64,000 bases of DNA from Haloferax marisrubri (lineage in GTDB: Archaea; Halobacteriota; Halobacteria; Halobacteriales; Haloferacaceae), in assembly GCF_001469875.2 (NCBI RefSeq), contig NZ_LOPW02000010.1:1-64000 (forward strand), written 5' to 3'. The position numbers were made by a program, and so were the translations under genes. The notes under the pieces were generated by a model that was not told the DNA's origin, did no database searches, and was given only the letters and a program-made list of their open reading frames with translations. Below are positions 5,276 through 10,942 of the stretch, in pieces; position 1 is the first letter of the stretch, and each line of letters opens with the position of its first letter.

Positions 5276-7861
<2,586 letters not shown>

Positions 7862-7933
7862 CTTATCTACACCTACGTGCCCCTCTCTTACCTCGATTGC
7901 CCCTTCAGAACCGAGCGCCCGAGCGGGTCGGAA

Positions 7934-7948
7934 CTTTGGATTCGAAAC
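7934..7948. promoter_or_regulatory. Candidate operator upstream of copA
   Basis: CTTTGGATTCGAAAC, an imperfect inverted repeat with a central T, 73-87 nt before the copA ATG. It matches the perfect palindrome before the AsnC-TRASH gene (8646-8660) at 13 of 15 positions. Lrp/AsnC proteins commonly bind sites of about this size, so it is a plausible binding site; that is inference. Confidence 0.45.
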
Positions 7949-7999
7949 CGCCGATTCCGACGCTCAGTCGCCGCCTGCACCACCTCGTCGCCAGCCCGG

Positions 8000-8599
8000 T
8001 CAGTCGTCGTTCGCGCCGGCTTCGAGGCGGTCGTATCGGTCTTCGAACCGGCCGAGACAGGACGAACAGCAGAAGTGGTAGAGCGTCCCGCCGATGCGGG
8101 CGCTTTCGCCCTCGCTCGTCACCGTGTTGCCGCACTCGGCGCATTCGAGGGCGAACCCGGTCCCGTTGACCGTCGGCGTCCACTCGGCGGACTCCACGAG
8201 GCTCACCTCGTAGTCGCGGACCCGCGAGAGGTCCACGAGGTCGTCCAACTGGGCGCGGACGGAACTCCCGTCGAGTCGGGCGTGAGCGGTCACCTCGCCG
8301 TCGGCCGCGACGAACAGGTGTTGGACCGGGTTGGCCGCGCGGAGGGCGTCGCGGACCTCGTCGACGAACTCCGGGCGGACGGTCAGCCTGACGAGGACGG
8401 GCGTCCCGCCCGAGAGCGTCGATTGGTCGAGGTCGACGGTGAAGCGGCGGATGATGCCCTCCTCTCGGAGGCGGTCGATGCGGTCGGAGACCGCCGGCGC
8501 GGAGAGGCCGACTTCGGCGGAGATGTCGCTGAAGGGTCGGCGGGCGTCTTCGGCGAGGAGTTCGAGGATGTGGAGGTCGGTTTCGTCGAGCGCGCGCAT
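8000..8599 (-). CDS. Lrp/AsnC-family copper-responsive regulator with TRASH domain
   Basis: About 199 aa. An AsnC-type helix-turn-helix occupies the first 50 residues (LDETDLHILELLAEDARRPF, then SAPAVSDRIDRLREEGII), followed by a ligand/oligomerisation region. The C-terminal TRASH metal-binding domain has a CAEC pair and a later YHFCCSSC cluster. In Halobacterium an AsnC-TRASH protein (VNG1179C) is required to induce the copper ATPase; this gene has the same architecture and sits beside copA. The ATG at 8599 is preferred to one at 8626 because the family starts right before LDETD and a TATA-like cctatgac is centred about 27 nt upstream. Confidence 0.9.
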   Translation of the reverse strand: MRALDETDLHILELLAEDARRPFSDISAEVGLSAPAVSDRIDRLREEGIIRRFTVDLDQSTLSGGTPVLVRLTVRPEFVDEVRDALRAANPVQHLFVAADGEVTAHARLDGSSVRAQLDDLVDLSRVRDYEVSLVESAEWTPTVNGTGFALECAECGNTVTSEGESARIGGTLYHFCCSSCLGRFEDRYDRLEAGANDD

Positions 8600-8645
8600 G
8601 CGCCTCGGTAGGGGCCGCGATGTCATAGGTGTTCCTCGCGTTCGG

Positions 8646-8660
8646 CTTTCGATTCGAAAG
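8646..8660. promoter_or_regulatory. Perfect 15-bp palindrome before the copper regulator
   Basis: CTTTCGA-T-TCGAAAG, exact arms with a one-base centre, 47-61 nt upstream of the regulator start and 72-86 nt upstream of the divergent CopZ-like gene. It is closely related to the motif at 7934-7948 before copA, suggesting autoregulation and shared control of the three copper genes. Confidence 0.5.
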
Positions 8661-8731
8661 TCGAAGTCGGCCGGTCGGCGAACCGACGAAAGGGCAATCC
8701 ACTAAATCGAGAAGCCCCTACTTCGAACCGT

Positions 8732-8929
8732 ATGCCGACCACCCTCACCGTCACCGGAATGACCTGCGAACACTGCGAACAGCGCGTCGCCGACGCCCTC
8801 GCCGGCGTCGACGGCGTCGATGACGCGACCGCCGACCGCGAGACGGAGCGCGCGACCGTCGAGGGCGACGCCGACACCGACGCCCTCGTCGCGGCCGTCG
8901 AAGACGCGGGCTACGACGCGAGCGCCTGA
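8732..8929 (+). CDS. CopZ-like heavy-metal-associated chaperone
   Basis: 65 aa, a single HMA domain with metal-binding GMTCEHC near residues 9-15 and the usual beta-alpha-beta-beta-alpha-beta length. Such proteins carry Cu(I) in the cytoplasm and hand it to the HMA domains of CopA. It is divergent from the AsnC-TRASH regulator and next to copA. A TATA-like ctaaat lies about 28 nt upstream, consistent with leaderless transcription. Confidence 0.93.
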   Translation: MPTTLTVTGMTCEHCEQRVADALAGVDGVDDATADRETERATVEGDADTDALVAAVEDAGYDASA

Positions 8930-10282: not shown

Positions 10283-10405
10283 ACAGGAACGGCGCGAGCG
10301 CGACCCTTGAGGGCGGCCGCCGATTCCCAGTTTCCGAGGATTCGAAAATCGGTCCGGATTTATAACCTCCCGGCGGCCCACGCTTCACATGTGAGGTGAC
10401 AGACG

Positions 10406-10942
10406 ATGGCCGCAACCGGCGAAATCGAGATGCTGGGGAACCGGATGGAGTTCGACTACGCCGAGGGCGTCACCGGCTACGTGCTCGTGTTCGCCCGAAT
10501 CGTCACGGGGTACTGGTTCCTCCACGCGGGGGTGACGAAGTACCTCGCCGCCGAGCCGTTTAACGCGGGCGGCTGGCTCGTGAACGGCACCACCGGCGCG
10601 CCCGGCCCGGTCCACGCGTTCCTCGCGTGGGTCGGCCAGACGCCGCTGATGCTCGAGTTCACGAACTTCATGGTTCCGCTGGGCGAGACGCTCATCGGGT
10701 TCGCGCTCATCACCGGGGCCGCGGTCCGCCTCGCCGCCGCCGGGGGGACGTTCCTCATGACGTTCTTCTACCTCGGGAACGCCGACTGGGGTCACGGGCT
10801 GGTCAACGGCGACCTGCTGGGGCTCGTGATGTTCCTCGTGGTCGGCGCGCTCGCGGCGGGCCGCATCCTCGGCCTCGACGCGTACCTCGAGGAGATGGAG
10901 TTCGTCCGTCAGCGACCGAAGCTCCGGTACCTCCTCGGCTGA
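10406..10942 (+). CDS. DoxX/DoxD-like membrane protein
   Basis: 178 aa with four predicted TM helices. The first carries RIVTGYWFLHAGVTKYL, typical of the DoxX family; later helices follow GETLIGFALITGAAVRLA and GLVMFLVVGALAAGRILGL. Related proteins include the small subunit of archaeal thiosulfate:quinone oxidoreductase and bacterial DoxX proteins linked to redox homeostasis. The large DoxA-like partner is not visible here, so a quinone-linked role is only a family-based guess. A TATA-like tttataac lies about 45 nt before the ATG. Confidence 0.8.
   Translation: MAATGEIEMLGNRMEFDYAEGVTGYVLVFARIVTGYWFLHAGVTKYLAAEPFNAGGWLVNGTTGAPGPVHAFLAWVGQTPLMLEFTNFMVPLGETLIGFALITGAAVRLAAAGGTFLMTFFYLGNADWGHGLVNGDLLGLVMFLVVGALAAGRILGLDAYLEEMEFVRQRPKLRYLLG

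Follow-up and report, generated by a model that had tools for sequence, protein, structure and literature searches.

Some archaeal copper regulators join an Lrp-type helix-turn-helix (HTH) to a metal-binding TRASH domain. In Pyrococcus furiosus, CopR has this architecture, is encoded next to copA and was reported to activate copA and repress its own gene in vitro, a semi-palindrome being present at its targets (PMC7830388). In Halobacterium salinarum, VNG1179C (CopR) shares the architecture of the regulator encoded in the 64,000-nt stretch of Haloferax marisrubri DNA analysed here (the window), and acts on the same kinds of target, namely the pump yvgX (VNG0700G) and the chaperones VNG0702H and VNG2581H; copper induction of the pump requires the regulator, and a heat-shock role has also been reported for it (PMC3551603, PMC4236453, PMC4177876, PMC5605881). 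Without VNG1179C the copper induction of yvgX is lost, and the transcript of the regulator itself is described as not responding to copper (PMC3551603). A review presents the protein, printed there as VNG1197C, as a copper-dependent activator (PMC3600143), and another report calls it a repressor of pumps (PMC5605881). Motifs for VNG1179C derived from ChIP-chip and from structure were published as figures, one of them refined against bound promoters; the de novo motifs were called ambiguous and TATA-like, and the text of these reports names no palindrome (PMC3551603, PMC4236453, PMC4177876, PMC5605881). Since the motifs sit in figures, the palindrome described below may already be drawn there.

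The system nearest to the window is that of Hfx. alexandrinus, from the same genus and with the same three neighbouring genes, copA-lrp-copZ, whose numbering (SC1-cds4 to cds6) would fit the window order on a contig starting at base 1 (PMC10694973). Induction in that study used silver, not copper: the log2 fold change of copA was 3.25, 4.48 and 5.64 at 0.1, 0.25 and 0.5 mM, that of lrp 2.2 and 3.73 at 0.25 and 0.5 mM, and that of copZ 3.1 at 0.5 mM (PMC10694973). Control by Lrp was proposed there from gene position and co-expression only, and the text of the paper describes no operator (PMC10694973). The H. mediterranei genome paper lists no copper-specific regulator among the annotated ones, as far as its text goes (PMC9240420). 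The palindrome was not found in literature titles or the openings of abstracts, nor in the text of PMC3551603, PMC4236453, PMC4177876, PMC7830388, PMC9240420, PMC5605881, PMC3600143 and PMC10694973.

The cop locus and its two palindromes

The genes and sequence elements of the locus are collected in Table 1. The regulator begins with an AsnC-type HTH (PF13404, 1.2e-16), its top PDB match by phmmer being LrpA (1i1g, 1.2e-12), and ends in a TRASH domain (PF24273, TRASH_HVO_1752_C, 6e-26); C153, C156, C177, C178 and C181 are unchanged across 28 aligned sequences. Its middle region gave no RAM domain in Pfam, and matches to AsnC-family structures extend to residue 138. The best 11 of 66 relatives all belong to Haloferax, with identities of up to 99%, and linkage to a CopA ATPase, often with a small chaperone too, was seen in many of the 66, not in all. 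With this HTH, these TRASH cysteines and its linkage to copA and copZ, the protein is classified by its sequence as a CopR-type (Lrp/AsnC-TRASH) regulator, and by analogy with the relatives studied in the literature it would control copA in a copper-dependent manner.

Table 1. Genes and sequence elements of the cop locus, in window coordinates
Feature	Position	Strand	Remarks
copA, copper-translocating P-type ATPase	5276..7861	-	TIGR01511, 551 bits (cut-off 397)
Putative core-promoter stretch of copA, GAAGGGGCAATCGAGGTAAG	7887..7906	-	conserved in alignment of relatives
Suggested degenerate second site, CGCTCGGTTCTGAAG	7903..7917	-	5 mismatches by eye; overlaps conserved core promoter
One-mismatch copy of the palindrome, CTTTGGATTCGAAAC (GTTTCGAATCCAAAG on the copA strand)	7934..7948	.	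centre 7941
Regulator gene, AsnC-type HTH and C-terminal TRASH	8000..8599	-	ORF readable from 8626
TATA-like box of the regulator gene, TATGAC	8622..8627	-	contains upstream ATG 8626
Palindrome CTTTCGATTCGAAAG, between divergent regulator and copZ genes	8646..8660	.	inverted repeat around central T; centre 8653
Putative core-promoter stretch of copZ, GAAAGGGCAATCCACTAAAT	8688..8707	+	counterpart of the copA stretch
copZ, 65-aa HMA copper chaperone, divergent from regulator	8732..8929	+	NF047957, 85.6 (cut-off 85, just passed)

The initial annotation had noticed two related 15-mers, one before the AsnC-TRASH gene and one before copA, and direct reading of the sequence found both in place. It had overlooked copZ, which runs in the opposite direction to the regulator, so that the perfect palindrome sits between two divergent genes, its centre 54 bp before the regulator ATG and 79 bp before that of copZ. 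The centre of the other copy lies 80 bp before the copA ATG. The two copies are 712 bp apart and match at 93% over 14 nt.

A search pattern, CTTTSGAWTCSAAAG, was built solely from these two sites and their symmetry. In the whole 3.9-Mb genome it has one exact place and two places at ≤1 mismatch, both in the cop locus; the chance expectation per genome, from an order-2 Markov model of the window, is 0.017 exact places and 0.79 at ≤1 mismatch. Frequent occurrence throughout the genome, which had been named beforehand as speaking against a regulatory site, was checked in this way, and the motif proved near-unique instead. At ≤2 mismatches there are 12 places, versus three for the reversed pattern. 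Ten of these 12 lie outside the cop locus and were considered as extra targets in the genome; they were rejected, since no homologue of copA, copZ or the regulator lies about 1.5 kb or less from any of them. Inside the window, the 0- and 1-mismatch matches are exactly 8646-8660 and 7934-7948, and a scan at ≤3 mismatches is uninformative alone, since it gave four matches against a shuffle mean of 2.45, with 23 of 100 shuffles reaching four.

Recurrence and spacing at haloarchaeal cop promoters

All 15 Haloferax genomes searched contain a place at ≤1 mismatch (the reversed pattern: one place in one genome), and the first-returned locus was the cop locus in 14 of them, L089 being the exception. 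Across 293 genomes of the order, 21 genomes have 22 exact places between them, and the reversed control has no match; in 17 of the 22 cases a homologue of copA, copZ or the regulator lies within 1.5 kb. The other five have no cop gene near, and about five exact sites are expected by chance in 293 genomes (0.017 per genome from window composition, assuming similar base composition); the non-cop sites were therefore treated as background. In one of the 17 cop-linked cases (L099:1555-1797), copA is represented after the regulator and the exact palindrome by a C-terminal fragment alone (86% identical), perhaps the product of a truncation or an assembly join.

Independently of the motif, 66 loci were gathered by similarity to the regulator, giving 67 regulator upstreams with the window, and 200 nt upstream of each gene were scanned. 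Among the copA upstreams of these loci, 28/38 have a site at ≤2 mismatches, 10/38 have none at that threshold, and 36/38 have one at ≤3; outside Haloferax the figures are 16/26 and 24/26. At ≤2 mismatches a site was found before copZ in 23/38 upstreams (12/26 outside Haloferax), the other 15 having none, and before the regulator in 25/67 (14/55 outside Haloferax), the remaining 42 having none; these last two sets of counts are not independent, since regulator and copZ share one site. Shuffled copA upstreams reach ≤2 mismatches in 0.16% of cases and ≤3 in about 1.5%, shuffled upstreams overall reach ≤2 in about 0.1-0.2%, and real DNA outside cop promoters does so in 6 of 6124 windows (0.1%), or 4 of the 1227 windows of ≤58% G+C. 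The palindrome is thus conserved at cop promoters and rare elsewhere, where one-mismatch sites occur at about the chance rate. Selection free of the motif applies to the regulator-similarity loci; the real-DNA control, the alignment of 54 copA promoters and the second-site scan (see below) also include motif-selected loci, a set of 67 places among the matches listed plus one place from the exact search. Related genomes are not independent, the 54 copA promoters reducing to 21 at a 60% identity cut.

The distance between the palindrome and its genes is narrowly kept. Among the regulator-selected loci, 34/38 have the centre of their best copA site between -73 and -80 and the other four have it at about -46, and all 28 sites at ≤2 mismatches lie 73-80 bp before the start codon. 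The centre is mostly at -76 to -80 from copZ and at -51 to -56 from the MRALDETD start of the regulator, so that copA and copZ have a common spacing and the regulator a different one. In the window, copA and copZ also have a common core promoter downstream of the palindrome, made of GAARGGGCAATC followed by a weak TATA-like stretch with TAA; the conserved copA stretch (Table 1) is read as BRE-like and then weakly TATA-like, these element names being an interpretation of the sequence. When the 54 copA upstreams, some of them motif-selected, were anchored on the palindrome, the downstream region held a mean of 0.515 bits per column, versus 0.261 when anchored on the start codon, which indicates that the distance from palindrome to core promoter is kept.

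The pattern is not specific by itself once a mismatch is allowed: among the matches listed in other genomes, 84 loci with 0-1 mismatch were examined, and 46 of them lack a nearby start of a cop gene. Judged by eye, some non-cop sites recur beside the same gene in several genomes (an S9 peptidase with a TAXI-type protein, MATE, PDH E1-type and MFS genes), several of them close to the starts of these unrelated genes. Variants close to the palindrome, TACTTTCGATTCGAAAT among them, are found repeatedly in one family (f17) beside S9-peptidase-like/TAXI-like genes and MATE-like ones (L110, L113, L116 and L120; L111, L115, L119, L125 and L132). Near base 1508 of L107, L108 and L109, which belong to three different families, an exact palindrome precedes an MFS-like transporter gene; given the CTTGAA or CTTGCA that follows, it may belong to a core promoter and have no link to copper, and with three families and an exact site the case could be more than background. 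Another exact palindrome (L100:1501-1515) precedes a gene at 1617-1970 for a small Met-rich membrane protein (MMGYG, with a SHOCT-like end by eye), and similar proteins are encoded near one-mismatch sites in L143 and L160, a possible copper-related extra target.

The palindrome as a probable CopR operator, and the alternatives

Our reading, with a probability of roughly 0.8, is that CTTTSGAWTCSAAAG serves as operator for the AsnC-TRASH copper regulator encoded beside it, the CopR of haloarchaea. The initial annotation had proposed the pair as a direct binding site of that regulator. As far as a cop-specific operator is concerned, this proposal is strongly supported by the near-uniqueness of the motif, by its fixed spacing before copA in other genera and by a Halobacterium copA that carries it on a contig other than that of the regulator; binding by the regulator itself we infer. 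Taken together, the available accounts of Halobacterium, P. furiosus and Hfx. alexandrinus speak for a CopR operator through which copA and copZ are activated, the regulator gene being also raised by metal in Haloferax.

Under this operator reading, a dimer of the regulator would read the two CTTTSG half-sites through its HTH domains, and copper(I) or silver would reach the C-terminal TRASH cysteines. From its sites some 80 bp before copA and copZ, the protein would then activate their weak TATA-like promoters, and the site about 54 bp before the regulator, beside its core promoter, would allow self-adjusted expression in the lineages that keep it. P. furiosus resembles this in that its cop-motif TTNNCAWWWTGNNAA at copper-induced promoters is also a 15-bp, semi-palindromic element and in that the TATA box there is atypical (C-enriched), as the weak TATA-like stretch is here (PMC7830388). 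The letters differ from those of CTTTSGAWTCSAAAG, and evidence in haloarchaea is confined to cop genes, as opposed to ten selected target genes in P. furiosus. The place of the site differs too: it lies directly before the BRE in P. furiosus (PMC7830388) and about 50 bp before the TATA-like stretch in haloarchaeal copA and copZ. Unlike these two, the site of the haloarchaeal regulator gene adjoins its core promoter. A comparison with Pyrococcus CopR could set operator-to-BRE distance against activation or repression.

The biological system is an ordinary one, and the new part is the sharpened cis-element. It offers a sharp, testable candidate operator for a haloarchaeal regulator whose de novo motifs were called ambiguous in the text of earlier reports, predicts a very small regulon (copA, copZ and sometimes the regulator), and marks a candidate copper- or silver-inducible promoter for Haloferax genetics.

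The palindrome might instead be the operator of a transcription factor other than the linked AsnC-TRASH protein. Since nearly every genome of the order has the regulator (135/146), linkage proves little on this point and co-occurrence has little power, and the VNG1179C motif work is known here from its text. A 15-bp palindrome, however, suits an Lrp-type dimer. The best-conserved palindromes stand at cop genes, and the Halobacterium orthologue is reported as needed for copper induction of the pump (PMC3551603); a different factor is accordingly held to be unlikely.

The 7934-7948 copy, lying shortly before copA, could also be imagined as a terminator or RNA hairpin that belongs to the regulator gene, but this is very improbable. 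That copy is an inverted repeat located 52 bp past the regulator stop codon, but a consensus scan made for bacterial terminators found no terminator-like site in 7800-8800, and the perfect copy stands in a divergent promoter region. Sites before copA also occur away from the regulator, which argues against a terminator or a by-product of gene order. The Halobacterium copA (L187), fetched by protein similarity and with the regulator on another contig, has CTTTGGATTCGAAGG at -77. In 11 motif-selected loci (L102, L103, L147, L150-L153, L155, L166, L172 and L173) no regulator was detected within 1.5 kb and the site lies at -77 to -80 of copA; an added motif-selected locus, L144, has it at -73. 

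An exception to the operator reading is Halobacterium bonnevillei, whose CopA upstream retains only a degraded, 5-mismatch remnant. Beside the Halobacterium copA with the degraded site, a stretch (L186:4338-4520) matches the TRASH end of the regulator only. In favour of the operator reading, two near-complete genomes in which no regulator match reached E 1e-30 also lack a close CopA, their best P-type ATPases being distant (41% and 37% identity), and the palindrome is absent from them at ≤1 mismatch; two cases prove little.

The least probable reading is that the two sequences resemble each other by chance or as a by-product of core promoters. In its favour, haloarchaeal BRE elements often contain CGAAA, about 0.8 one-mismatch places are expected per genome, and the many listed matches away from cop gene starts include recurrent ones beside unrelated genes. 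Strongly against it, the palindromes at cop genes are found further upstream than the core promoter, at a narrow spacing, and mark 16/26 copA upstreams outside Haloferax, compared with about 0.1-0.2% in the controls.

Plausible autoregulation and a possible second site

Autoregulation was part of the original proposal for this locus, and distances to the regulator gene are counted here from its probable start. Relatives have a TATA-like box at the position of the window TATGAC, reading TATCAC in L012 and, for example, TATTGTAT or TATATA in other genera, and the box lies 23-28 nt before MRALDETD. A TATA box at such a distance is expected for a leaderless haloarchaeal transcript. As the upstream ATG at 8626 falls within this conserved box, the start was taken as 8599 (MRALDETD), which from the sequence is probably the true one.

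Counted from there, many lineages have a site at about -53, and in a few of them no copZ diverges from the regulator. The regulator keeps a site in L054 (2 mismatches) and L067 (3 mismatches), where there is no plausible divergent gene, and in L040 (1 mismatch), which has a divergent ORF other than copZ; in these three loci the palindrome apparently does not serve copZ alone. Silver induction of lrp in Haloferax, as reported, agrees with autoregulation (PMC10694973). On the other side stand the 42 siteless regulator upstreams and the Halobacterium regulator transcript, described as constant with copper (PMC3551603). Autoregulation is therefore plausible in the lineages that keep the site, and is not general.

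The copA promoter may hold a second, degenerate site (Table 1), placed 31 bp further downstream than the main one, a distance of about three turns of the helix. In the 21 copA promoters less than 60% identical, a second copy fits best at +31 bp, with a mean of 6.67 mismatches, compared with 10.88 at the median offset and with 9.76 (sd 0.19; 0/300 as low) in shuffles, in which the conserved core promoter is lost as well. Part of this signal comes from the GAAGG that is conserved within that promoter. For copZ the best offset is 37, on the core promoter, with +31 second, and for the regulator it is again +31, there on the TATA region. These results, together with the loss of the core promoter in the shuffles, leave the +31 site as a suggestive lead. 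A tentative model would be a two-site, helically phased CopR operator, in which the strong palindrome, some 79 bp from copA, would be joined by a degenerate partner 31 bp nearer the promoter. Neighbouring dimers on one DNA face could then reach the weak core promoter, and the regulator site at about -53 would give a different, weaker output. If this were true, how each gene responds would depend on where its operator lies, not on the letters. Elsewhere in the window, a half-site, GATTCGAAA, which is not a full palindrome, occurs at 10339-10347, before a DoxX-like gene at 10406.
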